Shown: in pieces, positions 31,924 to 59,402 of the stretch
Numbering within the stretch: the first letter of the stretch is position 1
How the letters are laid out: each line of letters begins with the position of its first letter
DNA from: Zelonia costaricensis
Taxonomy: Eukaryota > Euglenozoa > Kinetoplastea > Trypanosomatida > Trypanosomatidae
Reading direction: 5' to 3'
Assembly (NCBI GenBank): GCA_030849075.1
Contig: JASAOO010003482.1
Coordinates: 1-64,000, forward strand
DNA: 64,000 nt
Notes under the pieces: model-generated
The model's input: the letters and a program-made list of their open reading frames with translations, nothing else
Databases searched by the model: none
What the model was told of the DNA's origin: nothing
Made by a program: the position numbers and the translations under genes

Positions 31924-34900
31924 ATGGAGTCCCGCGACGACAGTCCCATCGGCGTCTTCGACACCAGCAGCCCTGCTGTTGGCGATGTGTCGCAAGGGCT
32001 CGTCTTCGACGCCCATCAGCGGCAGGACACGGGGGACTCGAGCGACACGCCGGGCCACAGCATCCGCTCCGATGGCGGGCACCGCCGCACTCGTCCCACC
32101 GGTGCCCCGACCATGGGCGTGACGAACGACTCCTTCGGGCAGCCGCTGGGCAACAACGCCATCTTCGCCTCCACGCGCCCCTTCGACAGCCGCCAGAACT
32201 CCGCCGCAGTGGAGCAGTTTCTGTTGGAAAGCCCGACAGCCAACTACACCTTCACCCCAAGCACGGTGCAGCGCGGCGGCGCCGGGGACGGTACGCGGTT
32301 CAGCGAAAACTCTAGCTTTGTGTCCATCCCCAAGGCGGGCATGCCGGCTGCCGACCCGCCGCTCGGCGTCTCGCCGTGGTCCACGAGCGACGCGCTGCCC
32401 ATCGTGAGTCCCGCCCCCATCGGCCGCAGCACCGCTGCCGCCTCCTCTGTCACGAGCACCTCGTCGCGCAAGACGGCGGCGCCGTCGCCTGAGCAGGCGC
32501 CTGCTACGCACCGTGACCCGCACGCCGCACCCGCGCCGGTGCTGACGGCGGTTACGTCGTCAACGTCTCATGCATCCGCGACCCCCGCGAGGGCCACGCA
32601 CACGTCCGCGCTGCCCAGCGTAGCGGCCTTCCCGGCTGCCGCCTCTGCGACGCCGCGGCCGCCGCTGACCGCCACGCTCACCAGCACCATCGTCTCCTCC
32701 TCCACGCCCTCCTCGACCGGACTCGCCTCGTCGACTCGCACGAGCAGCGGTGCGGTCGGCAGGGCCACGCCGCCGGCGCTGTCGCAGTCCACCACGCCGG
32801 CCTCCTTCGTGCATCGCACCGCGAGCACCACCGGCAGTGGCAGCGCGGCCGGTGAGCGGCGCGGCGCGGCGCCGCTGCTGGTAGCGCGGGGCGCCTCCTT
32901 CTCCATGACGTCACCCAACACGGCCGCCCCCACCGAGCGGGGCTCCGTGAATTCCGCCCCGCTGCTCCGCACTTCATCACGCCGCACATCCGAGACCCTC
33001 TTTCCCTCCCCCACGTCCGTCGTCGTGTCGGCCACCGGCACCTCAACCATGCCACCCTCCTCGGGGCGGCCCGTATCCCCGTCGCTCGGCAGCGTCGGCA
33101 GGCAGGGCTCCAACTTGTCGGCACACTCCCCGGGCAGCGAGCTGCTCGCCCCTGGCGGCACAGGCGCGGGCAATCACGGGTTCAGCCCAGTGCAGCGCAG
33201 CCCCAGCACGTCGCACCCCATGGCGGCCGCGCACTGTGGCGGTAGCAGCTTCGGCTCCGGCAGCGGGGCAGGCAGCTTCCCGACGACCTTGAACGCTGCC
33301 GGCGCGCTAGGCGGACTCCCGCGCAGCCGCTCAGACACGGAGCTGCGCCGCGTCTTTTCCGATCGCGGCGTGCCGGCCAACTTCGCCGCCCCGGCTGTCG
33401 GTCTCATGCAGGGTTACGTCGCAAACGCAGGCGGCGGCGTCGACCGCTACTCCCCGTACCGCCTCTCGCCGTCCACCACGACCGGCACGCGTACACGGGG
33501 CGTCGTGCGCGCGTCAGAGTCGTCGTTCCACCCGAGCCGGCACGCACCGTCGAGCGGGGGTGGCGGGGCGGCGGTCGGTGGGGCTGCGCAGCCGCCGTGG
33601 ATGAGTGCGGCGGAGCGGGTGCGGGAGCCGCGCGGCGGCGAGGACCTGTCGACCCTCGACCCGGTCCTGCCTTACGACCAGAGCCGAATGGGCATGCAGG
33701 TGCGGCGGGCGGCCGCGCAAGGGGTGCTGACAGCGGGCAAGCTGCGCGCGCTCGAGGCCCAGCAGCAGGCGGCCTACGGGAACATGAGCGCGGGCTACGC
33801 GCCGCAGCTCGTGGCCTACAGCTCCGCCGGGGGCAGCGTGCGGCCGAGTCCGTACAACCCGCGGTACGCTGGTGCCTCCCCCGCCACCAGCGGGGTGGGG
33901 GCTATGCCGGTGCTGGTGGCGCAGGAGGAGGCCCTCATGGCCTCCACCCGTCACCACGGGCGTACCCTGTCGGAGCAGTCGGGCTGGCGCCGCGGGGGCA
34001 ACGTGCGGTCCGTCGCCGGCGGTGGCGGGGGCACGGTCAGCGTCAGCGGCGGCCGCCGCGCTGTCACGGCGCTGCCCTCGTCGCGCGTGATCACGGCGTC
34101 GGAGACGGTGACGGGTGCCGTGAGCCCGAACAACAGCTCTGTCAGCGCCTCCTTCCGCACCCGCTCCGCGGGCGGCGGACTGCCGAGCGCGTTGGGGAGT
34201 GTTGGGTCGAAGCTTGGGCTGGCGGAGCACAAGCTCGCGAACCTTTTCCAGGGCCGGCAGCACGGCGCGCACGCAGACCCGGGGCACTCCAGCCTCTACG
34301 CCACAGACACCTCCGCTGGCGCTCTGGTGGCGTCGTCCTTGTCAGGCGGCGCCGGTGGCGGAGGGGGGAGCGGGGCGAACAACGGCGCTGGTGAGAGAGG
34401 CAGCAGCATGCCGCCTTGGGGCTGTGGCGGGGCCGCAGGGGGTGCTGGCGGTGGTGGTGGCGGCGGCGGCGGCGGCGGTGGTGGGGGCAGCAACCGCGGT
34501 GGGGCGGGGGCCTCCCCAAGCAGTCGGGGCGAACCGCGCAGGACGACAAAGGTGACCCGTGGCGAGGTGGAGCGGAACCGGGAGTACAAGTCTGCGGACG
34601 TCAAGAAGAAGATGGACACGGAGGGCGACGAGGACGAGCGCGACGAGCGCAACTTCCGGACGCGCAACATCAACGCCCTGCACGCCATTCCGTGGGACCA
34701 GCGGCGGCAGCTGCCCATGACGGGCTTCGGCACCCGCTTCTTTGCGCTGCTGAGCACGCCGCGGTTTTGGGAGAAGCTCGACTGGACGGTGCGCGGCTCC
34801 CTGCTGACGGTGCTGCCGACGATGGTGCTCTCGCTGGAGCCGACGACGGCGCCCAAGTTTCCAATGCCGTCCTCGCTCGCCTTCAACGCCTTCTGGATCA

Positions 34901-37900
34901 CGATGCCGACCTTTGGCAGCGGGCTGCGCGAGCTGATCATCGCGCTGAAGGGCTTCTCGATGGGGCTGCTCTTTCTGTGCATCATCGTCGGCGTGCACCC
35001 GGGCCCGGCGTGGGTGAGTCTGCTGCTGCTCTTCTTCTTTACCCTCATCTCTTCCTTCGTTGCTGAGGAGACGAAGAAGACGGCGGCCTACGTGCTCGCC
35101 TCGACCATCATGCAGTACATCACGAACCCGGTCGGCACGAACTTCTACTACGTGGGGCAGTACTACATCGGCCTGCTCATCGCCCTCTCGTTTGGTACGG
35201 CCGGCTTTCTCATCCCCTTCATCCGGTGGTCCAGCGACATCGCGCGGCACTACATCAAGGCGATGGGCAACTCTCTGAGCATCGACCTGCAGGGCACGCT
35301 GTCGAGCTTCTGGGTGCGCACGCCGCTGGAGCGGGAGCTGAACGTGGTGCGGCTACGGCAGCTGCGCGCGACGGCGGAGAAGTGCCTCGGCAAGATCGAG
35401 ACGGCGCTCGACGAGTCCGGCTACGAGCCGCACACAGGGGCCTACATGATGTGCATGGTGAACCGCTTCAACTTCTGCAAGTCCATCCACAACATCCTCG
35501 GCTCCCTCAGCCACGTCATCGAGCTCATCGCCGACAACCCCAGTCTGATCGACACCCCGATGTGCACCGCCTTCGGGGAGCAGATCGGCGACCACCTCGC
35601 CGTCATCTCGTCGGCCATGGACAGCATGGTGCTGAAGATTGTCGACTTCGAGCGCATCGTGACGCAGCAGGAGATCCAGTTCTTCCGGGAGGCGCGGGAG
35701 CGCTTCCAGGACGCCCTGTCGCGCGTTCGCGAGGACGTTATCCTGACAAACGAGAACTACGAGACGGACGAGTCGGATGTGCTGCTCGGGTTTTTCATGT
35801 TCAGCCTGGACGAGATGTGCGAGGTGATTAGCCAGTTCGAGGAGACGGCGCACCCGCCGAACACGCTCTGGCACGCAATGCTGTTTCCCGTGCGCGATGT
35901 GAAGAGCGTTATCGACGCCTTCAAGAACCTCGCGCTGACCGTGGTGCGGCGTCGCACCATTCCACGGCGCATGAAGGAGGCGATCAAGCTGTCCCTGTGC
36001 ATGGTGCTGCCCAGCATCTTCCAGGTGTACGCGCTCGACAACAACTCCGTCAGTCCGATGGCGGGTGCGTCGGTGATTGCCCTCATCTACAACCCGACCG
36101 GCTCGGAGAGCTTCCACTACGCCTCGGGGCGTCTGCTGGGCACGGTGCTCGGCTCGATGGGGGCGCTGATGTCCGTGACGATCGCAGGCGGCCGGTTGTG
36201 GGTGCTGTACATTTTCATCGTCATCCTGTCCTTTGTGGGGGCCTACGTGCAGGCCGCCCCAGGCTTCTACGCGCTGGGCAACGCGATTGTGTGCAGCACC
36301 ATCTCCGTGTGCACGCAGTACAAGGACCTGAACGCCGCCATGGTGCGCATTCAGCAGAACTGCTTCGCCATTCTTATGTACTTCGCCATTGCCTGCGTGC
36401 TGTGGCCAATGCGGGCGCACACGAAGGTGAAGATGAGCCTGAACGTCACGCTGCGCTGCACGCGCGAGGCCATCACGCGCATGCTGCGCAACCTCGACAT
36501 GCCGTACGACGCGAACGAGGTGACAGCCGACGTGTCGGCGCTGCTGATCGAGATGAACAAGAAGGTGCGCACGCAGTCTCGCTTCATTCCGGGCGCGGTG
36601 GAGGAACCGACGATGGGCTCGGTCGAGTACCCGGAGGATTCGTGGAAGCGCATCGTGGAGGCGGAGAAGAAGCTCTGCCTCGCGCTGTCCATGATGTGCT
36701 TCGCCTATCACGTGTTTATGTCCAGCCGCGCCGACCCGACGACTGAGCTGTCGGTGCACTGGGTCGTGCTGCACCGCATCGCCCCGCACGCGCAGGACCT
36801 CTCCGACCTCATCTACGCCGCCATCGACCTGTACCTCCTCTCGCTGTCCAAGACAACGATTGTGCCGACGTCGCACATGACGCGGCTGCGGGTGGGCATG
36901 GTCGATGCCCACCAAGCCATCCTGGACACGTACATCGCCACCATCTCGCGCAAGGTGGCAGGGGGGCCGGACTCAGACGACGAGGACGACGCCGGGGCCG
37001 GCTACCGCGAGGAGGACATGTACGCGGGCAGCTCCTACACAAACGAGATCGAGTACGACAACGGCGGAAGCGACGGGGCCCCGCACGGTGGTGGGGGTGG
37101 CGGTAACGGGAATGGGGGCCGCGGTGGTGCCGCGGCCGCGCCCACGACGCCGTCGCGCTCGTGCCCCGACAGCCGCATTTCTCCCGCGCAGGCCGGCAGC
37201 GACGCAGGTCGCGACGGCGCGTACGGCGGAGCGGCCTCCAGCAGTGCTGCCGCTGCCACTGCGGCGACCATCACAAAGGCTGGGGGCGACGAGGAGGACG
37301 ACCACGCCGGCCCTGCCTCCCCACATCGACACCGCACGGGCAAGACAGGCACGGAGCACCACACCCGCCGTACAAACGGGCGCCACCAGCATCACCATCG
37401 CCGGCGCGACGGTTCGGCGGACTCGTCTGCGTCGGACTCCTCGAGCTCGGCTGCGTCAGGCAGCGACAAGAAGGGGAAGACGAAGAGCGGTGGGCAAGAG
37501 GGCAAGCCGGGCAAGAAGCGGGTCGGCTACCTCGGCTACGACCTGACCGCAGAGGAGACGGCGGCGCTGCGCGCCTTCGTCGCGACGCGGGTGAGCAACG
37601 CCACCTTCGGCAACAAGTCCACGGCCTTGACGAACGGCACGTTTGGTGGTGGTGGTGGTGCGGCAGCGGCTGCTGCGGCTGCGGCGGCGTTGCGGGGCTC
37701 GATGGCCTTCTCCAGCTCGCCGCTTCAGGTGAACAACGATGCGCGGCTGATGGCGGTGACTGGCGGCGACGACAACCTCGCCGCGACGCTGCGAAAGAAG
37801 CACAACGTCACAGTGAAGCGCGACTCCGCTGCGGACGAGGACGCGCACGCGGCAGAGGCCAAGTCGGAGGCGGCGCCGCACGACGTGGACAACGTGCCAG

Positions 37901-39489
37901 ACATCACCTTCTCCAACACCTCCTTCCTCAAGAACAACTCCTTCCTCCGCAACACATCCTTCCTCGGGCACCTCTTCACGAAGCGTGCCAAGGAGACGCG
38001 AGACCTGGACGCCGCGGAGATGCAGCCGCACGCCGGCGGCGCCGCGAGCCGGTCCGTGAGTTGCAGCGCCAGCAGCAACGCGAGCTCCACCCTCTCCCAC
38101 CGTGGCCACCGGAAGGCGAAGAAGACGCGGAGTCAAATTGCGAAGCAGCCGAAGGGGTCGCGCCGCTGCGGCGGCAAGGCGAGGGAGGGCGACGACGACG
38201 AGGACGAGCGCGACTACGGCCCGCGCAGTCGCAGTCGGAGTGACAGCCGCCGCAGCACGCCGGCGACATCGCCGACTCGGCAGGGTGACCGGGCCAGCGT
38301 CGGGAGCGACTTCAGCGACATTGAGGACGACCCCAAGCCGGCGGCGAAGCGCCGCGGCGGTGCTGCGGAGAAGGCGCGCCGGTCCGCCCCCGCTACCGTC
38401 ACCGACGGAGCAAAGGGTGGGAAAGCGAAGGCGGCGGCTGTGATTGGCACACACCCACCGATGGCGCACTCCACGCCGGCCGACTTGTCGGCGCGCGTTA
38501 GTGGCCGGTCGGCGGCGAACCCGCTGGCGGACAGTACCCGGCCGGCCACCACTGCCACCACCGCATCGACCGCACCACCGGCGGCGGCGTCGAGCCCGGG
38601 CTTGCCGGCCATGGCGCAGTCGACCCCGGTGCTGCTCCCAACCGCGTCGCTGAGTGCCGCCGCCGCGGTGCCCGCGTCGCTGCCGAAGGTGGTGGGCGTC
38701 GCGAGCGCCGTGAGCTTCTTCAGCGGCGAGGACGCAGCGGCGACAGCGCTTCTAGCCACGTCGCAGGAGGGAACAGCGGAGCGGGCGACGAAGACGGTGG
38801 CGCACCTGGCGGGCGAGGACGGCGCCGCGCAGCCGTCCCCGCAGCAGGCCAGCGGCAGCACGACACAGAACAGCACGCCGGAGGAGTACGGGGGCGTGCC
38901 GGGCGGGGTGCCGCCTCAGCAGTCCCAAGCTGGCGAGGGCGCCAAGAAGCCGATGAGCTACGAGAGCACGCGTGGCAGCGGCGAGACGGAAGCGAAGGTG
39001 GTGCCAACGCGGGACGGCACGACAGCAGACTCACCCGACGTGGAGGTGGACGGGAAGAAGAAGAAGGTGGGCAAGGAACAGCTGTCCGGCGTGCGCAAGA
39101 CGGACGAGGCCGCGTACGACCACGACGACCCCGCGCTGTCCCACCCGCGCAGCTCCTTCGCCAGCCACCCCTCCAGCAGCGCGCTGCACCGCTCCCTCGG
39201 CGGCGCAGGCGGCGGTGCGGCGCAGCGGGCGGCCGTGAAGCTGGACAGCCAGCGCGATGGCGACGGCACGAGCGTGACCCCGTCCGACGACGCCGGCGAC
39301 CCCGAAGAGATTTTGAACAACCTGTCTTTCTTCGACGCTGACCGGGGCGAGTTCGTGCTGACCAACCACGACATCCACTCGCTCGAGGCGTTTCTCTTCG
39401 GCATGCGAGTACTTGTGGTGCACATCAACGAGCTGCAGAAGGCGCTGCTGGAGATGCAGCACGCCACCGACCTCGCAAAACGACTGTGA
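31924..39489 (+). CDS. Giant FUSC-like membrane protein, tandem copy 1 (2521 aa)
   Basis: A 2521-residue protein with a membrane core in two blocks. Block one (about 940-1105) has roughly six spans from RFWEKLDWTVRGSLLTVLP to GFLIPFIRWSS. A soluble, mostly helical section (about 1110-1350) separates it from block two (about 1353-1500), which has GRLLGTVLGSMGAL and ends in LWPMR. Two such blocks and the R-x2-GT-x2-G pattern are typical of the FUSC/aromatic-acid-exporter group that includes fusaric-acid-resistance proteins and plant ALMT channels, so transport of an organic anion is a reasonable inference, substrate unknown. The N-terminal 900 residues are Ser/Thr/Ala-rich, with a Gly-rich run near 842-858; residues about 1680-2440 are low-complexity with His/Arg and Ser/Asp patches. 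Nine Asn-x-Ser/Thr-Phe motifs occur in the tails. The last 70 residues form a module shared with copies 2 and 3. It is the most divergent copy. Confidence 0.75.
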   Translation: MESRDDSPIGVFDTSSPAVGDVSQGLVFDAHQRQDTGDSSDTPGHSIRSDGGHRRTRPTGAPTMGVTNDSFGQPLGNNAIFASTRPFDSRQNSAAVEQFLLESPTANYTFTPSTVQRGGAGDGTRFSENSSFVSIPKAGMPAADPPLGVSPWSTSDALPIVSPAPIGRSTAAASSVTSTSSRKTAAPSPEQAPATHRDPHAAPAPVLTAVTSSTSHASATPARATHTSALPSVAAFPAAASATPRPPLTATLTSTIVSSSTPSSTGLASSTRTSSGAVGRATPPALSQSTTPASFVHRTASTTGSGSAAGERRGAAPLLVARGASFSMTSPNTAAPTERGSVNSAPLLRTSSRRTSETLFPSPTSVVVSATGTSTMPPSSGRPVSPSLGSVGRQGSNLSAHSPGSELLAPGGTGAGNHGFSPVQRSPSTSHPMAAAHCGGSSFGSGSGAGSFPTTLNAAGALGGLPRSRSDTELRRVFSDRGVPANFAAPAVGLMQGYVANAGGGVDRYSPYRLSPSTTTGTRTRGVVRASESSFHPSRHAPSSGGGGAAVGGAAQPPWMSAAERVREPRGGEDLSTLDPVLPYDQSRMGMQVRRAAAQGVLTAGKLRALEAQQQAAYGNMSAGYAPQLVAYSSAGGSVRPSPYNPRYAGASPATSGVGAMPVLVAQEEALMASTRHHGRTLSEQSGWRRGGNVRSVAGGGGGTVSVSGGRRAVTALPSSRVITASETVTGAVSPNNSSVSASFRTRSAGGGLPSALGSVGSKLGLAEHKLANLFQGRQHGAHADPGHSSLYATDTSAGALVASSLSGGAGGGGGSGANNGAGERGSSMPPWGCGGAAGGAGGGGGGGGGGGGGGSNRGGAGASPSSRGEPRRTTKVTRGEVERNREYKSADVKKKMDTEGDEDERDERNFRTRNINALHAIPWDQRRQLPMTGFGTRFFALLSTPRFWEKLDWTVRGSLLTVLPTMVLSLEPTTAPKFPMPSSLAFNAFWITMPTFGSGLRELIIALKGFSMGLLFLCIIVGVHPGPAWVSLLLLFFFTLISSFVAEETKKTAAYVLASTIMQYITNPVGTNFYYVGQYYIGLLIALSFGTAGFLIPFIRWSSDIARHYIKAMGNSLSIDLQGTLSSFWVRTPLERELNVVRLRQLRATAEKCLGKIETALDESGYEPHTGAYMMCMVNRFNFCKSIHNILGSLSHVIELIADNPSLIDTPMCTAFGEQIGDHLAVISSAMDSMVLKIVDFERIVTQQEIQFFREARERFQDALSRVREDVILTNENYETDESDVLLGFFMFSLDEMCEVISQFEETAHPPNTLWHAMLFPVRDVKSVIDAFKNLALTVVRRRTIPRRMKEAIKLSLCMVLPSIFQVYALDNNSVSPMAGASVIALIYNPTGSESFHYASGRLLGTVLGSMGALMSVTIAGGRLWVLYIFIVILSFVGAYVQAAPGFYALGNAIVCSTISVCTQYKDLNAAMVRIQQNCFAILMYFAIACVLWPMRAHTKVKMSLNVTLRCTREAITRMLRNLDMPYDANEVTADVSALLIEMNKKVRTQSRFIPGAVEEPTMGSVEYPEDSWKRIVEAEKKLCLALSMMCFAYHVFMSSRADPTTELSVHWVVLHRIAPHAQDLSDLIYAAIDLYLLSLSKTTIVPTSHMTRLRVGMVDAHQAILDTYIATISRKVAGGPDSDDEDDAGAGYREEDMYAGSSYTNEIEYDNGGSDGAPHGGGGGGNGNGGRGGAAAAPTTPSRSCPDSRISPAQAGSDAGRDGAYGGAASSSAAAATAATITKAGGDEEDDHAGPASPHRHRTGKTGTEHHTRRTNGRHQHHHRRRDGSADSSASDSSSSAASGSDKKGKTKSGGQEGKPGKKRVGYLGYDLTAEETAALRAFVATRVSNATFGNKSTALTNGTFGGGGGAAAAAAAAAALRGSMAFSSSPLQVNNDARLMAVTGGDDNLAATLRKKHNVTVKRDSAADEDAHAAEAKSEAAPHDVDNVPDITFSNTSFLKNNSFLRNTSFLGHLFTKRAKETRDLDAAEMQPHAGGAASRSVSCSASSNASSTLSHRGHRKAKKTRSQIAKQPKGSRRCGGKAREGDDDEDERDYGPRSRSRSDSRRSTPATSPTRQGDRASVGSDFSDIEDDPKPAAKRRGGAAEKARRSAPATVTDGAKGGKAKAAAVIGTHPPMAHSTPADLSARVSGRSAANPLADSTRPATTATTASTAPPAAASSPGLPAMAQSTPVLLPTASLSAAAAVPASLPKVVGVASAVSFFSGEDAAATALLATSQEGTAERATKTVAHLAGEDGAAQPSPQQASGSTTQNSTPEEYGGVPGGVPPQQSQAGEGAKKPMSYESTRGSGETEAKVVPTRDGTTADSPDVEVDGKKKKVGKEQLSGVRKTDEAAYDHDDPALSHPRSSFASHPSSSALHRSLGGAGGGAAQRAAVKLDSQRDGDGTSVTPSDDAGDPEEILNNLSFFDADRGEFVLTNHDIHSLEAFLFGMRVLVVHINELQKALLEMQHATDLAKRL
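34440..34516 (+). repeat. GGY-repeat tract coding for polyglycine in FUSC-like copy 1
   Basis: Near-perfect GGT/GGC codon repeats encode about 17 glycines in a row just before the conserved core. The plus strand carries many closely spaced G runs and could form a G-quadruplex in DNA or mRNA. The length is likely to vary between strains. Confidence 0.6.
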
Positions 39490-39967
39490 GAGCCGCTTAA
39501 GGGGAGGGGGGAGGAAAGACAAGAAGCTGGGAAAAGGAGCGGAGCTCTTTCCCGGCTTCGTGAGCGCTTCTCCGTCTCACCTCTGTGTGTGCGTGTGTGG
39601 CCCCCCCTCGCTTGTGAGCTCCTTGTGCGTGGTCTGAGGTTCTTCTTTTTGCACTCGAGTAGTGCGTTGCCCTTGCGGTGCTTGCCTGTGCGTGGGTGGC
39701 GTTTTCTCATGTATACCCGCGGTACTACATGCCGCCGCGAATGCACTACATGTGTCTACACTGAAGCGGCGTATCTCTGACGAAGCGTGTGAAGAGCAAA
39801 CGAACAACCTCAGCGAAGACCTAACACGTCAGCGGGGGAACGAAGAGGAAGTCAGACGCGCGGCACGGTGGCACGATGTCTGTGCGCTGCGCACCGCCTC
39901 CACCCTCCCCAACGGACTGGTTTTGAACCACTTTCCATGGTCACGTCGTGATGGTGCTGATGTGTAG

Positions 39968-39989
39968 GTGTGTGTGTGTGTGTGTGTGT
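39968..39989 (+). repeat. (TG)n microsatellite
   Basis: About eleven TG units, continuing as TTTG variants, 480 bases after the stop of FUSC-like copy 1, so probably in its 3' UTR. Confidence 0.7.
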
Positions 39990-40646
39990 TTGTGTTTGTG
40001 GTCTTTCATCCTCGTCCGCCACCTTTCGTATAAGCGGCGCACAATGCTACGTGCGCATCCTTGCCAGTAGGGTACAGGATCGCGCACCTTCATCACGGGC
40101 GACGCGCAAGGCCGTTTCCTGTGCTGCGTGTGCGCTCTCTCTGATTGGGGGTTCTTGTGCCATTCCCACTCCCGCCAACTCTCCTCTACACTCTGAACTC
40201 CCTTTTTTCTTTGCATTGCCACTGCGTCGTTGCCATCAATGCGACGTCGCAAGAGCTGCGTTGCACACAAACGCAGGCGCACACACGCACACACTCAAGG
40301 ACGCACACGCAATCTCTTTATACCCTACCCCTTTCCGCACACATCACGGTGCCCCTTCCGCTGCATCCCCCACCCTTTCCCTTTTTTCCATTTGTGCGCG
40401 TACTGTGTCTGTGCACACGCCGGCACCCAACCGTGTCCCCTCCCACCACGGCTCCGGCACTGCAGTCCCCTCGTTGAGTGGCTGACTGGCGGCAGGACCG
40501 GGCTCTGCCGTTTTGTGTGCGTGTTTGTGCCTCTTGTGCGGCTGTGTGTCTGCGTGCACTAAACGCAAAACAATAAGGATCAACACTTGGCAACAGCGTG
40601 CCTGCGATAGTGGACAGCACGATAAGGCGCACTCGCGCTCGCGCGC

Positions 40647-40668
40647 GTGTGTGTGTGTGTGTGTGTGT
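40647..40668 (+). repeat. (TG)n microsatellite
   Basis: Eleven TG units preceded by a CGCGCG stretch, within the probable 3' UTR or spacer after FUSC-like copy 1. Confidence 0.7.
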
Positions 40669-48800: not shown

Positions 48801-49308
48801 GCCGCCGGACATGTCCGCCACCGGCGCCGCGGTCCCGCCCACGGGCCGCTCGATGTCGAGCGGTGGTGCTGCGGCGGCAGCGAACCAGCTCGGGTCCTCG
48901 GTCTTCGCCTCTGGCGAGGCGTCCTCGCCGCTGGGAGGCCGCGCGGGCAACAGCAGCGCGCAAGGCGGGGGTGGTGGGAACGGCAACAGGCCGTCGAGCC
49001 TCGAGGACACCAGCCGTCGCGGCTCAGGGCTGAACAACAGCAGCAATTTTGTTGACCTGCTCCGCAGCTTCGCCGGCACGCAGAGCTTCAATCCTGCGCT
49101 GCTGCGCATGCTGCAGGGGGAGGACGGGACTGCCGGCTCCGCCGGGGTGGAGGAAGACGTCGGGGACGAGTACGTGCTGACGAACAGCGACATCCACAGC
49201 CTCGAGGCGTTCCTGTTCGGCCTGCGCGCGCTGATTGGGCAGGTGGAGGAGCTGGAGCGGAGTTTGCTGGAGGTCGTGCACGGCACCGAGATGGCAAAGA
49301 AGCTGTAG
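42886..49308 (+). CDS. Giant FUSC-like membrane protein, tandem copy 2 (2140 aa)
   Basis: A 2140-residue paralogue of the preceding gene. The N-terminal tail is shorter (about 350 residues) and contains a segment shared only with copy 3, RLTNPDAQRRIV followed by GSSNPLHIWG (about 118-147). The membrane core has block one at about 360-525 (RFWEKVDWSFRGSTVAILP to FPYIRWSS) and block two at about 768-910 (GRLMGTVLGCLTGLLG to VVWPVR). It is far closer to copy 3 than to copy 1, with tracts of almost identical DNA. The C-terminal 1000 residues are Ser/Ala/Gly/Pro-rich and carry NSSF, NGTF and two NASF motifs plus related NASM motifs. The protein ends in the shared module, starting DEYVLTNSDIHSLEAFLFGL. 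The start is the first ATG (42886); a longer frame from 42853 would use GTG. An organic-anion transporter or channel role is inferred from the core only. Confidence 0.75.
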   Translation: MSEEGNSGPGTPRENTTAPPAGVGARSTVSGAHGGRRQVRAQAQLRPPHAKVSPTASPPPGSPATAAPGGGASGFPQKPSGAPAPRKLVAYQEEPERPTENAGSPPPSKVAPADAAAAAARLTNPDAQRRIVASGSSNPLHIWGQESNFFKSHFFQRRRGEEAEKGSGGKEPATALRELQVKQATYPTGAVGWDASATGSPKLNSSHHRPFGSNDNSRDTGMRIYGSGVSSQATAQFHDDDGIDVDDAYKIGGNEAEGPSRKRSGLSYRSQGRSGADGGGSGGGGGRRGEGDHLLSTSDTSDNTPPEPPKGPGATSWASLSNLRTRNINALRAYSWDQRAFLPTREGLLAPIWYLFASPRFWEKVDWSFRGSTVAILPTLILCLEPATENIFPMPTSVVFLAYWTTQPTLGAGLRETFTVLKAFCISLAYLVIVVTIHPGPQWLTILILFFSLAVGAFVAQQLRVMIAYCFASLMMQYVANSVTTDYVYIGNFYVTLFIGQAFAIGALVFPYIRWSSENARRYIIVMGDAISLSVHGACCSFWVEGNLLERQLHVSRLRQLRHTIEVSMAKAEKGLSEMGYEPHSGVYTTRLKTRMSFLKNVFNIIQSMTLVIEQITSTPALIETPMCRAFGDRIREELGVAAAAMDAMLLRIVDLDELVSEADFEAFSAAKTRYEDAVSSVRDEVILSNENYRTDNSDILLGFFLFSVEELMETINKFRDAEHCPSNLWYFLTFPLRDLQSLWFAFVELYHAIKLRHSITRRLKEGIKLSLCVALAAYFQTYALKNSATNPVVGVDTIAFLYRSTGGESFQYGQGRLMGTVLGCLTGLLGVRLANGRRSILYVCTLILTFAGSYIQASPEYGALGNGMSNGVISVVLQYTDQDGAITRIQQNCFSVIIYFIITSVVWPVRCQTRVKSGFDGSMRMGREVTDRLLRNLDLPHSATAVSSDALELLVEMQKKVGQQLQNMGGARAEPTMDSAEFPEVPWRMLLSAQRKLVATLLMMRYAYSTFMTSTIADAADETDGAVAAVATSISVHWVVLHRISPYTRQLSELFYEAMEVYLLLMSKVTFVPTAELTRLRLGMMQCYDRIVAVYIETIQHELRDDGASSEDLDGFDELNGEDSAAGNGAKAEVKLPVIGGGAAVVPAGAYVPVISPSGLVVDTALRDNSSFVVPMGARRSGGGNGAPQRSSSGLSKSGGSQRSRGTNNTNRGSSVGRISYKLTPAERQRLREYVLGQCTAAATASTASATATGTSMEGLAALRGMGGPIGGAPVNANSFVGGLNFTNASMFNLNGTFFNRNASMFDSALLRNAGIAVAAPVHEEPRMMASSMRSAQEGSRSEHQGRHRRGADGQASAGASTTMHSTLRSSIRNGFRQLRGRSHTDPDRSAVVDDASSESEMPEAVTVPILPIGAGLDISILSDSAAGEPATAPPSLGQHHLRRRDTAGQGEQQQRDGDGRSLHSSMNVPAPPSASVSHSLLSAASAAPPPAPAPPAPETSTAATTWRLPQHTAPPPSVLVQSAVLSAEVHLAITTTPAALARTMHAAPSVNSGAALPTGSFAQHQHHDPAQLPQGDGTHSVANNTGLLSTSSMLMSGGAGASRVAGGDVFALNRTARQTLRPGAATVGGGSFAAPHGAAARQRGSGGGHGRGRRAGEEDERSDAASASFRSVTPRREDSTHSPQHGSSFAGPPAAASQQELKQGSRTTPGQPSAERDDARRPPPAAAAAHRVPGTRGLDSDSSQKFSPESTQRHAIAKMFAEAAGGSYGDTEDAATKDSPRQPSPGGGPEGRGTLLSATSDEGDDREAGEGPWGIHTDKRGHLLSDTSNELLGSMTTTAHLSRPTHLPTTLPIPTAAKAHGSDGRGASSADATEESVERAAGSATNPYPTAFTNNASFTASGPAIPEALRAYVEGLAAHQQQQAPPPAALLGNASFIQLSSNLPAITGAFQRTMEATAGMGSAAGATTAVPPDMSATGAAVPPTGRSMSSGGAAAAANQLGSSVFASGEASSPLGGRAGNSSAQGGGGGNGNRPSSLEDTSRRGSGLNNSSNFVDLLRSFAGTQSFNPALLRMLQGEDGTAGSAGVEEDVGDEYVLTNSDIHSLEAFLFGLRALIGQVEELERSLLEVVHGTEMAKKL

Positions 49309-49643: not shown

Positions 49644-49675
<32 letters not shown>

Positions 49676-49678
49676 GTA
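49644..49678 (+). repeat. (TG)n microsatellite with one TTTG interruption
   Basis: TG units over about 35 bases, 340 bases after the stop of FUSC-like copy 2, probably in its 3' UTR. Confidence 0.7.
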
Positions 49679-49886: not shown

Positions 49887-49912
49887 GTGTGTGTGTGTGT
49901 GTGTGTGTGTGT
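49887..49912 (+). repeat. (TG)n microsatellite
   Basis: Thirteen uninterrupted GT units about 210 bases after the previous TG tract. Confidence 0.7.
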
Positions 49913-50356
49913 GGATGCTTGAGTGTGTATGCCCAAGACGGTGCTGGTGGAGTAGCACATGCTATAACTATTATTGCCCCCCTCCTCCTCCTTGCTGTAG
50001 GCTATCACGTGTGCATGTGCGTCTGCGTGCACTGCAGTGCCTCCGCCTCTTTCTCCTTTTTGTTTTTGTCCCGTCTCTTGCCCGAGTTTGGCGTGTGCCC
50101 ACCTCACCTGTATCTCGCGGCCCCGTCTTTGGTGCCTCACACGGGCCTCTTTCCCCCCCCCCCCTGCCCCAGTACGGCCGAACCCAACACGTAAGCGCCG
50201 GCGCGCAGCGGCGAAGCAGGCTCTGCCCCCCTCCCTCCCCACTCCACCGTCTGCGGGCGGTGTGCCGTCAGCTGTTTTGGTGCCCTTTTTCCGCGTTTCG
50301 CGTTTCCCCCTTTCTGTCGCGGGAGGGCTCCGTGGATGTCGGTATTTCAGCGCGCA

Positions 50357-50380
50357 CGCACACACACACACACACACACA
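50357..50380 (+). repeat. (CA)n microsatellite
   Basis: Twelve CA units on the plus strand. It lies about 450 bases after the last TG tract and marks the switch to C-rich sequence leading to copy 3. Confidence 0.7.
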
Positions 50381-53114: not shown

Positions 53115-56100
53115 ATGCATCGCGAGGATCAGTCAGTCACCTCGACCAACCCCACGCGGGGCAGCCGCGTGAGCGCCTCTAGCGGAGGCGGCACGGCATC
53201 GCGCAATCCACGCCGCCACGTCCACGCCCGCGCCGGCGGTGGCTCCGCGGCGCTGCTCATCCCCAGCGCCACCGCCACCGCCACCGCCACACACCCGCGT
53301 ACCGGCTCAGACGACTCGGCAGGCTCGCTGCTCCCCGTCACGTCCGCCAGCGGCCCCTCCGCAGCGTCCCCCGCCGCCCGCTCCACCGCCGTCCTTAACA
53401 ACGCCAGCCACGATGACAGCGATGACGCACCGGATCGAAGCACCTCCTCGACCTCCACCACGACCAAAGCACGGGACGCACCGCGGACGCTGCACGCGTA
53501 TCAAGAGGTCCCGCCGCGCCGCGTGTCCCCGCCGCCCACGGCGGCACTCGCCACGGCCGCCGCAGCGCAGGGGAAGCCAGGGACCGCCCCCACACCGGCG
53601 CCTGCTGGGGCGAAGACCGCCTCGAGTGTGTCTGCGGCGGCGCAGGCTGCGGCTGCGGCACGGCTCACCAACCCTGACGCGCAGCGGCGCATCGTGACAG
53701 CCGGCTCTTCGAACCCCCTGCACGTCTGGGGGCATGAGACCACGTTTCTGAGGTCGCGCTACTTCAACTCGAAGCGCCGCAAGGAGCACGACCCGCACAG
53801 CAGCAATGAACCCGGGGACGAGGCGGAGGAGGGCTGGACGGCGGCACGCACCACCGACGGGACGAGCGGAGGCGCCAGCTCCCCGCTGGAGAAGGAGAGC
53901 AAGTTGCGCATCTTTCCCGCCTCCACAACATCGTCGCAGCAGTCGCGCGGATGGCGCCGCTACAGCGACGACAGCAGCGGCGAGCCGTTCGGAAAGGGAG
54001 ACGAGGAGGACGAGCAGTGCAGTCGCATCGTGTCCGCGGATGCGGCGCAGGCGTCCCTCACCAGCGGTGGTGGGGGCGGTGGTGGTGGGCGCCGGCGTGG
54101 CGGCGGCGGTGGGCCGGGCGATGCCCTCGCCTCCACCTCCGACACGTCTGACAGCGGACCGCTGTGGAAGCCTGGCGCGCTGCCGAGCACCTTCGCGACA
54201 GCGTCGCAGTGCCGCACGCGGAACATGAACGCCCTGCGCGCCTACTCGTGGGATCAGCGCGTGTTCCTGCCGCAGCGTCACGGTGGCGTATCCCCCGCAT
54301 TCGGCCTGTTGGCCTCCCCACGCTTCTGGGAGAAGCTGGACTGGACGATTCGCGGTGCGGTGCTGACGATCCTGCCGACCATGATTCTGTGCCTCGAGCC
54401 GACCACAAAGCACATCTTTCCCATGCCCACGTCGGTGGTCTTCCTAGCGTACTGGACAACGCAGCCGACGTTCGGCGCAGGCCTGCGGGAGACGTACGTG
54501 GTGCTGAAGGGCTTCACCATCAGCCTCGTCTTCCTGTGCATCGTCGTCGCCATCCAACCTGGCCCAAAGTGGCTAACGCTCATCATCATGTTCATCGCAC
54601 TCGTCATCGGCGCCTTCCTGGCCGAGCAGATGAAGCGCATGATGGCCTACTGCTTCGCCAGTCTGCTGATGCAGTACGTGTCGCACCCCGACACGACGGG
54701 CTTCAAGTACATTGGGGACTACTACACGACACTGCTGATCGGGCAGGGGTTCGGGCTCGCCTCCTTCATCTTCCCGTACATCCGGTGGTCCAGCGAGAAC
54801 GCGCGGCGCTACCTCGTGACGATGGGTGACGCAATCAGCCTTTCCGTGCACGGGGCGTGCTGCAGCTTCTGGGTGGAGACAAGCCTGCTGGAGCGGCAGC
54901 TGCACGCGGCACGTCTCCGGCAGCTGCGCCAGACCATCGAAGCCAGCATGAAGAAGGCCGTGCAGGCGCTGTCGGAGATGGGCTACGAACCGCACTCGGG
55001 GGTGTACACGACGCGGCTGAAGACGCGCATGTCGTTCCTCAAGAACGTCTTCAACATCATTCAGTCCATGACGCTCGTGATCGAGCAGATCGCGTCCACC
55101 CCGGCGCTGATCGAGACCCCCATGTGCCGCGCGTTTGGCGAGCGGATCCGTGGCGAGCTTGCGGTGGCGGCGGCGGCGATGGACGCGATGCTGCTGCGCA
55201 TCGTGGACCTCGATGAACTCGTGTCGGAGGCGGACTTCGAGGCGTTCAGTGCAGCCAAGACGCGGTACGAGGATGCGGTGTCGAGCGTGCGCGATGAGGT
55301 GATCCTGAGCAACGAGAACTACCACACCGACAACAGCGACATCCTGCTTGGCTTCTTCCTGTTCAGCGTGGAGGAGCTGATGGAGGCGATCAGCGGCTTC
55401 AAGGACGCCGCACACAACCCGAGCAACCTGTGGCACTTCCTGACCTTCCCACTGCGCGACCTGCAAAGCTCGTGGCTGGCGTTTGTGGAGCTGTACCACG
55501 CGATCAAGCTGCGGCACTCCATCACGCGTCGGCTGAAGGAGGCTATCAAGCTCTCCATCTGCATCGCCGCCGCCGCCTTCTTTCAAGTGTATGCCATGAA
55601 GAGCGCCTCGACGAGCCCCGTGGCGGGTGTCGACATCATCGCGTTCGTGTACCGGCCGACGGGCGGTGACAGCTTCCAGTACGCGCAGGGGCGTCTGCTG
55701 GGCACCGTGCTGGGCTCCTTGACGGGGCTGCTCGGGGTGCAGATCGCCAATGGCCGCCGTGGCGTGCTGTACGGCTGCGCGCTCGTGCTCACGTTCATCG
55801 CGGCCTACGTGCAGGCCTCGCCCGATTACGGGGCGCTGGGCAGCGCCATGGCCAACAGCGTCATCTCCATCTCCCTCCAGTACGGCAACACGAACACCGC
55901 CCTCACCCGCATCCAGCAGAACTGCTTCGCCATTCTCATCTACTTCGTCATGTCGTCCCTCATCTGGCCGGTCCGGGGTCGCACCAAGGTGAAGGCGGGC
56001 TTCGACATGAGCCTGCGCATGGCTCGTGAGGCGACGGACCGGCTGCTGCGCAACCTCGACCTCCCGCACAGCGCCACCGCCGTGAGCTCCGACGTGCTCG

Positions 56101-59100
56101 CGCTGATCGGGGAGATGCAGAAGAAGGTGGGTCAGCAGCTGGCCCACATTCCTGGCGCGAAGGCGGAGCCGACGATGGACTCGGCAGAGTTTCCAGAGAT
56201 GCCGTGGCGCATGCTGGTGGGCGCGCAGCGCAAGCTGGCCATCACGCTGCTGATGATGCGGCACGCGTACCTGACCTTCATGACCAGCACGATTGGCGAG
56301 TCTTCTCCAGAGACGTCGGCGTCGGCCCAAGCGAACGGCGGCGAGGTGGCGGCGGTGGCGACGAGCATCTCGGTGCACTGGGTGGTGCTGCACCGCATCT
56401 CGCCCTACACCCGGCAGCTGAGCGAACTCTTCTACGAGGCGATGGAGGTGTACCTGCTGCTGATGTCGAAGGTGACGTTTGTGCCCACGGCGGAGCTGAC
56501 ACGGCTGCGGCTGGGCATGATGCAGTGCTACGACCGCATCGTCGCGGTGTACATCGAGACCATCCAGCACGAGCTGCGCGACGACGGCGCCAGCAGCGAC
56601 CGCGACATGAGCGATGATGGAGAGGAACACGAGAGCAGCCACCACCACCACAGCGACGCGGGGGAGGACGGCAGTGCGGGCAGGAGGGGGAGCCACGGCG
56701 TGGCGGCGTACGTCGACGGGGACGACACGCTCCCGATCGGTGCCGCCTCCTTCGCCGCGCTGCCTGGTGCCACCCACCTCGCCATGTCCTTTGCGGCGAC
56801 GACGCCGTCGGGGCTGCTCATCCACAACACCAGCATGGTGGGCGGCAACCCGTCGTTCAGCGGCACCGGCGGCGCACTCGACCGCACGGCGCGCCGCTCC
56901 CTCGCGAAGGGCAAGGCGACGACCAGTCAGAGCGGCCTGTCCGAGTCGGCCGGCTCAAACCCGACGCCGGCGCCGGGGCCGAAGCGTGGCACGGGTCACT
57001 TCTCCTACAAGCTCACGCCCGAGGAGCGGCAGCGGCTGCGCGAGTACGTGCTGGGGCCCGGCAACTTGAGTCAGCCCAACGCATCCTTCTTCGCCGCGGC
57101 CGGCGCGCTGGCGGCGAACGAGGCGTCGGCGGCGGCGCTGCTGACGTCGCAGTCGGCGCTCCCCACTACGACGGGCTTCGGCGGTGGCGGCGGGATGAGC
57201 TTCACCAACGCAAGTATGTTCAACCTGAACGGCACCTTCTTCAACCGCAACGCGAGCATGTTCGACCCAGCGCTGCTGCGCAATGCCGGGATCGCCGTCG
57301 CGGCGCCGGTGCACGAGGAGCCGCGCATGGCGGGGCGGTCGACCTCGGCGGAAGACGGCGACGGCGACAGCGCATCGCGCTGGCCGCTGCACCGCGTCTT
57401 CCGCGGTGGCGGTGGTGGTGTTCATGGAAGCGCTGGCGGTGGCGACGGCGGGGGCGCGGTGGACGCCGACTCCCTCGTGATCGACAACCGTAGCGGGTCG
57501 GAGGTGGTGGACGGGGCGCGCACAGGCGCTGGCGGAGCTGCGGCTGGTGGTCTTGCTGCTGCTGTCGGGCCCGCGGCTGTGACGACGGACACGAGCGCAA
57601 CATCCCCGGCAGAGCACGGGGAGCACAAGCTTGCGGAATCCCCCCAACCCCTGCTTGTCGGGGATGCGGAGCCCTCGGGCTTGCACTCGCAAGCGGCGCA
57701 GTCGCGTCCGGCCCCGTCAGAGCGGGTGGAGGAGCAGGAGACCTTGAACGGCGGCGGGTTCCTCGTGCACGCCAGGACGGTGTTCGACGCGACCTCGTCG
57801 CCGCCGCTGGTGGCCCGGCGGCCGTGCGTCTCGGCCCCGTCGCTGCTGCAGCAGTCCATCGTGTTGCCCGTCGGGGTCTCGCTAAACGACGCCGACGCCG
57901 TGGCGCGGCTCGTGGAGTCGCAGGAGATGGGGCACGCGTACACGGACATCACCGCTGCCGAGCCGGGTGCGCTGTCGATCAGCGCGCCCCACACCAGCGC
58001 GCGTGCTGCCCCCGCCGCACAGGGCAGCGGTGAGAGCGATGGGGGTGTGCTGCTGTCCAACACGAGCTTCTTCATGAGCGACAACGCGGCGGCGGCCGCG
58101 CGGGTGGCGGGAGGCGATGTCTTCTTGCTCGGTCGCGCGGCGCGGCCGACGCTGTGGGGCGCGCACACGTGGGGCATGCGCGATGTGACGCGGGCCCTGC
58201 ACCACGACCCGACCGTAGGCACCGCGTCAGACGAGGTCGGGGAGCGCGGGTCGATGGGAAGGGCGGGGCGAGGAGCGGGCGGCGGAGGCGCTTTCACGGC
58301 TGATGCACACGAGTTCAGCTCGCAGGGCTCGACCAGCCCGGGACACGAGCCCTTCGAGGAGGGTCACCCGTCCTTCACGGCGGGCGAGCCTGAGCGGGAG
58401 GGCAGGGCGGCGCGGTCTGCGGAGCGCCACGTCGGGTTCCCGTGCCTGCCGGAGTCGGACGCGGAGGGCGGGGGCGACGGCGGGGGCCGCTCTGCATCTG
58501 CTGGTACTGCCGTGAGCGGCGACACGGAGGAGGAGAGGGAGGGCGGCAGCCGCATCGGCCACCACAGCAGCACGGCGGCACCGCTCTTCACGAACAACGC
58601 CAGCTTCACGGCGACCGGCCCAGCCATCCCGGAGGCACTGCGGGCGTACGTGGAGGGGCTCGCGGCGCACCAGCAGCAGCAAGCCCCACCCCCGCCCGCG
58701 CTGCTGGGCAACGTGTCGTTTGTGCACCTGTCCAACAACTTGCCGGCGCTCAGCAACCGCTCCTTCCTGCGGGGCGGTGCCTTCCCTGTTCCTGGCCACG
58801 GCACGGAGCCGGCGGAGCGGAGCATGGCAGACCCTGCGAGCTCATCGATCCCACCACCCGCTGCGTCCACCTCCGTGTCCGCGGGTGCCGCCGAGAGCGG
58901 CCCCACCAGCCACGCGGCCTCACTCTCGGCTGTGGCCAACGCGTTCGCCGCGGCCAGCCGCGGCGAGGCGGGCCGGGGTGCATCGGTGCTGAGCAGCAGC
59001 TTCGCGCCCTTCCGCGGACTCGCCGACCACGAGGGCAGCGGCCGCGCGGGGACGCAGCGCCCACCGTCCGCGGCTGCGGCTGCTGCTGCGGTCACCAACG

Positions 59101-59402
59101 CGACGTCTGCTGGTGGAGGGGAGCTGAGGAACATGACCTTCTTCGACGCCTTCCGCAGCTTCGCCGGCACGCAGAGCTTCAATCCTGCGCTGATGCGACT
59201 GCTGCAGCCCGAGGGGGAGTCTGGCGACGGCGACGGCGAGGGCGGGGAAGACTTCGGAGACGAGTACGTGCTGACGAACAGCGACATCCACAGCCTCGAG
59301 GCGTTCCTGTTCGGCCTGCGCGCGCTCATCACGCAGGTCGAGGAGATGGAGCGGCATCTGCTGGAGGTCGTGCACGGCACCGAGATGGCAAAGAAGCTGT
59401 AG
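53115..59402 (+). CDS. Giant FUSC-like membrane protein, tandem copy 3 (2095 aa)
   Basis: A 2095-residue paralogue closest to copy 2. It has an N-terminal low-complexity tail with the shared RLTNPDAQRRIV/GSSNPLHVWG segment (about 182-211). Block one of the core is at about 397-560 (RFWEKLDWTIRGAVLTILP to FPYIRWSS) and block two at about 812-960 (GRLLGTVLGSLTGLLG to LIWPVRG). The soluble section between blocks is almost identical to copy 2 over residues around 625-760. The tail after about residue 1162 begins with a His/Asp/Glu-rich patch (HESSHHHHSDAGED) and carries eight strict Asn-x-Ser/Thr-Phe motifs. It ends with the C-terminal module shared by all three copies. The first ATG is at 53115; the frame extends left only with a TTG start. 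Substrate and membrane location are unknown. Confidence 0.75.
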   Translation: MHREDQSVTSTNPTRGSRVSASSGGGTASRNPRRHVHARAGGGSAALLIPSATATATATHPRTGSDDSAGSLLPVTSASGPSAASPAARSTAVLNNASHDDSDDAPDRSTSSTSTTTKARDAPRTLHAYQEVPPRRVSPPPTAALATAAAAQGKPGTAPTPAPAGAKTASSVSAAAQAAAAARLTNPDAQRRIVTAGSSNPLHVWGHETTFLRSRYFNSKRRKEHDPHSSNEPGDEAEEGWTAARTTDGTSGGASSPLEKESKLRIFPASTTSSQQSRGWRRYSDDSSGEPFGKGDEEDEQCSRIVSADAAQASLTSGGGGGGGGRRRGGGGGPGDALASTSDTSDSGPLWKPGALPSTFATASQCRTRNMNALRAYSWDQRVFLPQRHGGVSPAFGLLASPRFWEKLDWTIRGAVLTILPTMILCLEPTTKHIFPMPTSVVFLAYWTTQPTFGAGLRETYVVLKGFTISLVFLCIVVAIQPGPKWLTLIIMFIALVIGAFLAEQMKRMMAYCFASLLMQYVSHPDTTGFKYIGDYYTTLLIGQGFGLASFIFPYIRWSSENARRYLVTMGDAISLSVHGACCSFWVETSLLERQLHAARLRQLRQTIEASMKKAVQALSEMGYEPHSGVYTTRLKTRMSFLKNVFNIIQSMTLVIEQIASTPALIETPMCRAFGERIRGELAVAAAAMDAMLLRIVDLDELVSEADFEAFSAAKTRYEDAVSSVRDEVILSNENYHTDNSDILLGFFLFSVEELMEAISGFKDAAHNPSNLWHFLTFPLRDLQSSWLAFVELYHAIKLRHSITRRLKEAIKLSICIAAAAFFQVYAMKSASTSPVAGVDIIAFVYRPTGGDSFQYAQGRLLGTVLGSLTGLLGVQIANGRRGVLYGCALVLTFIAAYVQASPDYGALGSAMANSVISISLQYGNTNTALTRIQQNCFAILIYFVMSSLIWPVRGRTKVKAGFDMSLRMAREATDRLLRNLDLPHSATAVSSDVLALIGEMQKKVGQQLAHIPGAKAEPTMDSAEFPEMPWRMLVGAQRKLAITLLMMRHAYLTFMTSTIGESSPETSASAQANGGEVAAVATSISVHWVVLHRISPYTRQLSELFYEAMEVYLLLMSKVTFVPTAELTRLRLGMMQCYDRIVAVYIETIQHELRDDGASSDRDMSDDGEEHESSHHHHSDAGEDGSAGRRGSHGVAAYVDGDDTLPIGAASFAALPGATHLAMSFAATTPSGLLIHNTSMVGGNPSFSGTGGALDRTARRSLAKGKATTSQSGLSESAGSNPTPAPGPKRGTGHFSYKLTPEERQRLREYVLGPGNLSQPNASFFAAAGALAANEASAAALLTSQSALPTTTGFGGGGGMSFTNASMFNLNGTFFNRNASMFDPALLRNAGIAVAAPVHEEPRMAGRSTSAEDGDGDSASRWPLHRVFRGGGGGVHGSAGGGDGGGAVDADSLVIDNRSGSEVVDGARTGAGGAAAGGLAAAVGPAAVTTDTSATSPAEHGEHKLAESPQPLLVGDAEPSGLHSQAAQSRPAPSERVEEQETLNGGGFLVHARTVFDATSSPPLVARRPCVSAPSLLQQSIVLPVGVSLNDADAVARLVESQEMGHAYTDITAAEPGALSISAPHTSARAAPAAQGSGESDGGVLLSNTSFFMSDNAAAAARVAGGDVFLLGRAARPTLWGAHTWGMRDVTRALHHDPTVGTASDEVGERGSMGRAGRGAGGGGAFTADAHEFSSQGSTSPGHEPFEEGHPSFTAGEPEREGRAARSAERHVGFPCLPESDAEGGGDGGGRSASAGTAVSGDTEEEREGGSRIGHHSSTAAPLFTNNASFTATGPAIPEALRAYVEGLAAHQQQQAPPPPALLGNVSFVHLSNNLPALSNRSFLRGGAFPVPGHGTEPAERSMADPASSSIPPPAASTSVSAGAAESGPTSHAASLSAVANAFAAASRGEAGRGASVLSSSFAPFRGLADHEGSGRAGTQRPPSAAAAAAAVTNATSAGGGELRNMTFFDAFRSFAGTQSFNPALMRLLQPEGESGDGDGEGGEDFGDEYVLTNSDIHSLEAFLFGLRALITQVEEMERHLLEVVHGTEMAKKL

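Follow-up and report, generated by a model that had tools for sequence, protein, structure and literature searches.

An array of Asn-x-Ser/Thr-Phe motifs in the tails of three giant FUSC_2/ALMT-like proteins of Zelonia costaricensis

Locus and features

The window, i.e., the whole stretch of DNA analysed here, comprises 64,000 nucleotides of contig C672 (JASAOO010003482.1) in the unannotated 28.7-Mb assembly GCA_030849075.1 of the trypanosomatid Zelonia costaricensis. It contains three open reading frames (ORFs) for giant FUSC_2/ALMT-like proteins, called copies 1 to 3, whose long tails repeatedly carry the tetrapeptide N-x-[ST]-F, with x standing for any residue. Here we present the counts, conservation and possible function of this motif. 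The three genes are:

31924..39489, + strand: copy 1, FUSC_2/ALMT-like protein, 2521 aa (ORF, translation, Pfam FUSC_2 E 5.7e-15)
42886..49308, + strand: copy 2, FUSC_2/ALMT-like protein, 2140 aa (ORF, translation, Pfam FUSC_2)
53115..59402, + strand: copy 3, FUSC_2/ALMT-like protein, 2095 aa (ORF, translation, Pfam FUSC_2)

An earlier note, made from the letters of this DNA alone, had called the proteins giant and FUSC-like, and all three do belong to the FUSC_2 family (PF13515), with scores of 56, 47.6 and 59.3 bits for copies 1, 2 and 3 at a curated cut-off of 25.6. By residue, copy 1 is laid out as an N-tail (approximately 1-910), a core (911-1681) and a C-tail (1682-2482). The closest core match in a protein search was from Novymonas esmeraldas (91%), by which the host would probably be a member of the Leishmaniinae close to Novymonas rather than Leishmania itself.

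Copies 2 and 3 share patches of DNA that are approximately 91-99% identical and are separated by stretches of 35-60% identity. Near-identical patches lie at copy-2 residues ~571-690, 1044-1083 and 1282-1320, and one patch (95-99%) spans a cluster of the form NASM-NGTF-NASM. Such patchiness is a pattern typical of gene conversion, because of which sites within the putatively converted blocks are not independent and count as one observation. Copy 1 by itself (9 motifs, approximately 0.5 expected) stands outside this problem.

Motif counts and chance controls

The earlier count of 21 strict motifs, distributed as 9, 4 and 8 over copies 1, 2 and 3, was exact, and its coordinates agree within 1 base with those given here. 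Equally sound was the estimate that chance should yield less than one motif per protein: the composition of the three proteins predicts 0.45, 0.42 and 0.37, and the observed counts were matched by 0, 1 and 0 of 2000 whole-protein shuffles, so that copy 2 by itself is at the edge of its own shuffles (1/2000). A first-order Markov control on the tails reached the observed counts in 0, 4 and 0 of 2000 cases. Among 3,200 patterns of the type a.[class]b, N.[ST]F ranked first in the three tails (21 observed, 0.69 expected, Poisson p 3.7e-24); N.[ST]M ranked seventh (5 observed, 0.37 expected). The genomic background was taken from mechanically called ORFs of at least 200 aa in the window and in 20 large contigs, each sampled by a single 10-kb stretch. 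The 89 other ORFs obtained (46,959 aa) hold 3 motifs where 3.5 are expected, with a maximum of 1 per ORF. The earlier note had proposed a comparison with the whole predicted proteome.

Homologues were collected by two protein searches (the second scored the best 7,987 candidates), which yielded at least 36 sequences and, together with the three from the window, a set of 39 proteins; these share kinship and are not independent draws. Where given for a site, retention is expressed over aligned rows (for NDSF, those that have residues there), group A being named for copy 1 and group B for copies 2 and 3. The sites are:

32125..32136, +: NDSF, copy 1 N-tail; NDSF in 10/14 group-A rows
32242..32253, +: NYTF, copy 1 N-tail; strict motif in 5/12 rows
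32308..32319, +: NSSF, copy 1 N-tail; strict in 6/16 rows, including NPSF, NPSF and NVSF of three Trypanosoma
37597..37608, +: NATF, copy 1 C-tail; strict in 10/16 rows
37633..37644, +: NGTF, copy 1 C-tail; strict in 12/17 rows
37915..37926, +: NTSF, copy 1, opening a triplet at 6-residue spacing; strict in 12/17 rows
37933..37944, +: NNSF, copy 1, middle of the triplet and best-conserved site
37951..37962, +: NTSF, copy 1, closing the triplet; strict in 10/19 rows
39319..39330, +: NLSF, copy 1, beside a conserved C-terminal hairpin; strict in 11/20 rows
46393..46404, +: NSSF, copy 2 C-tail
46750..46803, +: NASM-NGTF-NASM cluster, copy 2 (NGTF 46771-46782); DNA of the cluster identical to copy 3
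48574..48585, +: NASF, copy 2
48688..48699, +: NASF, copy 2
56826..56858, +: NTSM and NPSF (NPSF 56847-56858), copy 3
57078..57089, +: NASF, copy 3; strict in 13/17 group-B rows
57207..57260, +: NASM-NGTF-NASM cluster, copy 3 (NGTF 57228-57239)
58059..58070, +: NTSF, copy 3; strict in merely 2/17 group-B rows
58596..58607, +: NASF, copy 3; strict in 14/17 group-B rows
58710..58721, +: NVSF, copy 3; strict in 9/17 group-B rows, the others mostly with Y for F
58755..58766, +: NRSF, copy 3; strict in 6/17 group-B rows
59130..59141, +: NMTF (NMTFFDAF), copy 3, towards the C-terminal domain, last of the 21 motifs

At NNSF (37933-37944), S and F are present in 20/20 and N in 18/20 aligned rows, including three Trypanosoma, around whose rows the alignment is gappy. 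NLSF (39319-39330) may be part of a folded hairpin and thus structural rather than a tail motif, because it lies at the edge of the predicted C-terminal hairpin and N is missing in 9/20 aligned rows.

The second NASM of the cluster (46792-46803 and 57249-57260; group-B column 1674) is RASM in L. donovani, L. infantum, L. major, L. mexicana and L. tarentolae; an extra Arg precedes it in four of these five, where it resembles a basophilic kinase site.

Core fold, tail structure and topology

The following structural features were recognised:

34636..36993, +: copy 1 folded core (structure model), no N-x-[ST]-F inside
37204..39486, +: copy 1 C-tail (structure model), mostly disordered
39370-39486, 49189-49305 and 59283-59399: C-terminal element, DIHSLEAFLFG and helix (conservation)

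The modelled core of copy 1 consists of two blocks, each with approximately six membrane-type helices followed by a helical domain, the first of which is PhoU-like. The first half superposes, with both membrane helices and helical domain, on solved plant ALMT channels and so has the ALMT fold. Plant ALMTs are the closest solved folds, at a sequence identity of ~9-14%. The model suggests two ALMT-type channel units fused in a single chain.

In the model of the C-tail, 603 of 761 residues have a predicted local distance difference test (pLDDT) score below 50, the exceptions being mainly two short helices and the last ~60 residues; as the underlying alignment is poor at its start, the model was used for disorder only. 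Gly, Ser, Thr, Pro, Gln and Asn together make up 45-48% of the tails. All three copies end, after ~800-1000 tail residues, in a strongly conserved element, DIHSLEAFLFG plus a long helix, which is confidently helical in the model (made for copy 1 only).

Both tails would face the cytosol: with the ALMT fold and membrane helices in even number, they should emerge on the same side as the helical domain, which is cytosolic. The helix number was taken from the structure model, a hydropathy scan of three cores having given no clean count.

Anatomy of the motif in homologues

The 39 proteins contain 205 motifs in their tails (47,574 aa; 28 in N-tails, 177 in C-tails) and none in their cores (30,003 aa). 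In 34 of them the observed count was matched by at most 11 of 2000 whole-protein shuffles; the five exceptions are P0017, P0018, P0020, P0022 (T. equiperdum) and P0024 (L. seymouri, copy-B type).

All three fixed positions contribute. At the first residue of x.[ST]F in the tails, N alone is enriched (205 observed, 17.7 expected, 11.6x), with D at 11 vs 21.9 (0.5x) and E at 16 vs 21.6 (0.7x). Regarding the third position, the tails have 239 occurrences of N..F, of which 144 carry S (4.7x) and 61 carry T (4.1x), i.e., 205 with S/T, and N.[AG]F, the control in which the hydroxyl residue is replaced, occurs at 0.4x. Following N.[ST], F is enriched 13.5x, M 4.1x and Y 2.0x. Around the motif, in 195 distinct windows of residues, hydrophobic residues are frequent at N-3 (91), N-2 (119) and N+4 (104), each with 35 expected, and weakly so at -3 of the S/T (43 of 195, 35 expected), so that the wider motif appears to be roughly hydrophobic-x-N-x-[S/T]-F-hydrophobic. 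Gly is tolerated at x (-1 of S/T; 27/195). The acidic residues are uneven (Glu 0 vs 10 expected at N+1, Asp 19 vs 10 at N+5) and were not used as support. Phe often comes after the motif, N.[ST].F occurring at 8.2x.

As each Pro-free motif is formally an N-glycosylation sequon, the tails might be luminal or extracellular and glycosylated. The earlier note had argued against this on the ground of cytosolic tails, and it is highly improbable: the core fold and even helix number point to that side, F after the S/T is no part of a sequon, sequons with a non-hydrophobic follower are not enriched (285 vs 314 expected, compared with 339 vs 69 for a hydrophobic follower), and N-P-S-F (4 of 205) is what two Trypanosoma species have at one of the motif columns. 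The enhanced aromatic sequon was discarded along with it.

Another possibility is that the Phe-bearing motifs are cohesive segments through which the tails associate with each other, in a condensate or in amyloid-like clusters. Repetition is apparent in triplets such as NTSFLKNNSFLRNTSF and NASM-NGTF-NASM, and the composition of the tails and the modelled disorder of the C-tail would suit such stickers. Stickers should tolerate a shifted spacing, but with one residue fewer or more between N and S/T the enrichment falls from 22x for N.[ST]F to 3.1x for N[ST]F and 3.6x for N..[ST]F; furthermore, the isolated sites NDSF (10/14) and copy 3 NASF at 57078 (13/17) are roughly equal to clustered sites in retention. 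We regard this explanation as unlikely.

The FFAT motif, a ligand of VAP/MSP proteins, was also considered. NLSFFDADR and NMTFFDAF look similar to it, but FFDA is present at only 2 of the 21 sites. This candidate, further weakened by the position of NLSF at a predicted hairpin, was rejected; the genome has four MSP matches.

Conservation in aligned columns

Conservation was assessed in 17 aligned tail columns, leaving out P0031 and P0038 as near-duplicates and the hairpin column of NLSF. Since the selection criterion was N.[ST][FM] and two columns consist of N-x-S-M without a strict motif, the M count is inflated. As MAFFT may draw N and F together in tails, x of the same columns served as internal control. 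Column entropy is 1.55 for N, 3.49 for x, 1.84 for S/T and 2.22 for F. Identity to the window residues amounts to 0.68-0.78 for N, 0.76-0.90 for S/T and 0.61-0.79 for F or M, compared with 0.32-0.34 for x, 0.46-0.53 for the flanks and 0.28-0.45 for N, S/T and F at other tail positions. Strict retention per column ranges from 0 to 18 rows, some sites being well kept and others clade-specific.

Losses of exactly one fixed residue number 4 for S/T, 15 for N and 54 for F (N 22 and F 54 if the NLSF column is added). F was replaced by M, L, Y, V or I in 45 of its 54 losses, N by D in 2 of 15 and by E in none. The choice between Ser and Thr is site-specific: in 16 of the 17 columns, one of the two residues is present throughout or with a single exception, and in eight reference sequences S-T exchange is 5-14% at motifs, compared with 22-31% for S/T elsewhere in the tails and 15-27% for conserved S/T outside the motifs.

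The earlier note had proposed looking for conservation in orthologues, and it was found: N, S/T and F are kept, at some sites in Trypanosoma as well, while x and the flanks vary. Its description of the tails as hardly alignable applies to most of their length, which drifts; there are, however, conserved islands, many of which are motifs. Common descent of drifting tails combined with gene conversion could in principle mimic such islands, given that copies 2 and 3 share converted blocks, that related sequences are not independent and that an aligner may favour N and F matches. A compositional or alignment artefact of this kind is nonetheless the least probable explanation of all, as the shuffles, the Markov control and the genome background are all against it, and so is the contrast of x with N and S/T in the very same columns. 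Judged from the aligned sequences, N, S/T and F are held by evolution while x and most of the tail drift. Taken together, enrichment, restriction to the tails, conservation and per-site Ser/Thr retention indicate that a single short linear motif, under selection, is repeated along the tails.

Possible function of the array

The earlier note had preferred a motif that binds a partner or clusters the transporter. That it is a real, repeated and conserved linear motif agrees with the above, but a phosphorylation site fits at least as well as partner binding, because single losses affect S/T least and each site tends to keep its own Ser or Thr. At somewhat less than an even chance, we therefore slightly prefer to read the motifs as a multi-site array of Ser/Thr phospho-acceptors that regulates or relocates the channel. 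The tails would be long disordered regulatory arms, presumably cytosolic, of predicted ALMT/FUSC-type channels. The Ser or Thr of each motif would be the acceptor for a kinase that recognises Asn at -2 and, directly after the acceptor, a hydrophobic residue (F>M>Y). Such a kinase might resemble Polo or Nek6, or be a more selective one of the kinetoplastids, and phosphorylation at many sites would either gate the channel or change where it is located or how it clusters.

This reading is favoured because the hydroxyl residue is the hardest to lose and keeps its identity, and because Phe may become Met or Tyr. Acute inhibition of Cdc5/Polo in yeast reduces [DEN]x[ST]F sites (PMC10987667), Nek6, Nek7 and Nek9 have a site motif in common with Plk1, with selection for Asn at -2 (PMC6570481), and some plant ALMTs depend on kinases or phosphorylation, e.g., ALMT4, and ALMT12 with OST1 (PMC8707303). 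A profile search found one POLO_box gene in the genome.

Several points weigh against phosphorylation by such a kinase. For Polo and for Nek6/7/9, Asp or Glu at -2 is acceptable or preferred. In the tails, by contrast, D.[ST]F and E.[ST]F show no enrichment (1.0x and 1.4x), and Asp and Glu seldom or never replace a lost Asn (2 and 0 of 15, as above). All profiled Neks want a hydrophobic residue at -3 of the acceptor, where the motif has a weak excess (43/195); it is clear at -4 and -5 instead. Docking sites for a Polo box, S[ST]P, are barely enriched (1.22x), a weak test given that the polo box of T. brucei is without the phosphopeptide-binding residues (PMC7653357). No substrate consensus for T. 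brucei PLK was found in the literature consulted. S/T-rich tails by themselves slow the apparent loss of S/T. Finally, ALMT12 is called voltage- rather than kinase-activated in a review (PMC8707303).

Constitutive docking is a serious, somewhat less probable alternative. Here an unmodified N-x-[S/T]-F turn, held by the Asn and Ser/Thr side chains and filling a pocket with Phe, would bind a kinetoplastid reader, and many weak sites would together give the avidity by which the channel is anchored or clustered. A docking motif fits the strict preference for N, hardly ever exchanged for D/E, and the replacement of Phe by Met or Tyr, but not the retention of the hydroxyl residue; per-site retention of Ser vs Thr is unexpected for a simple pocket. 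Hydrophobic residues at both flanks and the recurrence of sites 5-7 residues apart (50 such neighbouring pairs in the tails) are in its favour. There is a precedent with the same spacing, the phosphotyrosine-binding (PTB) domain of Numb, which binds an NMSF peptide of Numb-associated kinase; binding is, however, 15-fold better after NMSF is changed to NAAF, so that a PTB-type reader would not demand Ser/Thr (PMC3507883). Profile searches of the genome for PID, EH and FERM_M gave no match, and the controls gave none either. NPF, the ligand of EH domains, has 0 occurrences in the homologue tails.

A more far-reaching proposal, which we consider possible rather than probable, is that the motif is one of the kinetoplastids' own, recognised by a kinase or receptor dedicated to it, one that does not accept Asp/Glu, and thereby controlling a family of giant double-ALMT channels, that it predates the split of Leishmania and Trypanosoma, and that it has extended to a separate FUSC paralogue.

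Long disordered tails of kinetoplastid proteins are easily dismissed as unalignable, and those of the FUSC proteins hold a countable, conserved code. The channel-like family with the motif is found in Leishmania, Trypanosoma and insect-only relatives. The motif offers a handle for finding the kinase or receptor, and it may be a switch by which ALMT-fold proteins outside plants are regulated.

Paralogues and neighbouring genes

The N-tail of a FUSC paralogue on contig C675 contains NGSF, NFTF and NRSM, its two strict motifs being reached by 41/1000 shuffles. Among 11 homologues of this paralogue, six have NRSF, NHSF or NQSF in the column of NRSM and four keep a strict motif in that of NFTF; three have no strict motif at all. 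An extension of the motif to this paralogue is suggestive only. Two other paralogues have 0 motifs (C642) and 1, near the core (C228). A protein search of the own genome with two tail segments retrieved the source genes, together with the copy-2 partner for one segment; the other segment gave three weak matches (E 0.04-0.25).

Upstream of the three copies lies an ORF for phosphoglucose isomerase (14199-16019, + strand). Because LmjF.12.0530 of L. major is a phosphoglucose isomerase as well, this segment of the window is probably syntenic with Leishmania chromosome 12. A 708-codon antisense ORF without Pfam match (14118-16244, - strand) covers the entire phosphoglucose isomerase ORF and is probably a by-product of GC-rich sequence.

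The accessible text of the literature found (PMC11520290, PMC5907651) describes no function of the channel-like family. An L. donovani protein of the same annotation, whose identifier points to chromosome 12, gained a missense change in an antimony-selected line, which is an association rather than proof of a cause (PMC5907651); it is linked with the window copies by shared annotation.

Comparison with known systems

With an N-glycosylation sequon the motif has the first three residues, N-x-[S/T], in common; it differs in being defined by the F after S/T, in tolerating P at x and in lying in tails that would be cytosolic. Compared with the plant ALMTs (AtALMT1, AtALMT9, GmALMT12/QUAC1), the window proteins differ by a second such block in the same chain and by tails hundreds of residues long. 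The ELM pattern for Plk1 excludes Gly at -1, which is not avoided in the motifs of this family.

The earlier note knew of no description of the motif, and none in these FUSC proteins was found in the open-access literature; as a pattern, it does fall within the Polo consensus [DEN]x[ST]F (PMC10987667), and NMSF is a ligand of the Numb PTB domain (PMC3507883), neither of which fits fully. The PTB ligand NxxF is alike in having N at 0 and F at +3, literally as NMSF in Numb-associated kinase (PMC3507883). It is unlike in that its Ser is dispensable, whereas S/T has the fewest single losses here, and in that the residue before F would be free, whereas 205 of the 239 N..F of the tails have S or T. 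Uncharacterised motifs with Asn are mentioned in the available part of a trypanosomatid phosphoproteome study, which lists none of them (PMC6611643).

The Nek6/7/9 kinases (group 4 Neks) resemble the system in favouring Asn (for Nek6 also Gly) at -2 and in sharing their motif with Plk1; they differ in requiring a hydrophobic residue at -3, which is weak in the window motif, and in that group 4 prefers acids (PMC6570481). With the Polo/Cdc5/Plk1 consensus [D/E/N]-x-[S/T]-F the window motif shares Asn at -2, the Ser/Thr acceptor, here the residue least lost, and Phe or another hydrophobic residue at +1, in the order F, M, Y; Phe at +1 also marks Cdc5-dependent sites in yeast meiosis (PMC10987667). 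The window motif, unlike that consensus, makes no use of Asp/Glu at -2 and adds hydrophobic residues at -4/-5. By the frequencies of N, D and E at -2 it thus appears to lie outside the strict Polo consensus, and may still work like a Polo site.

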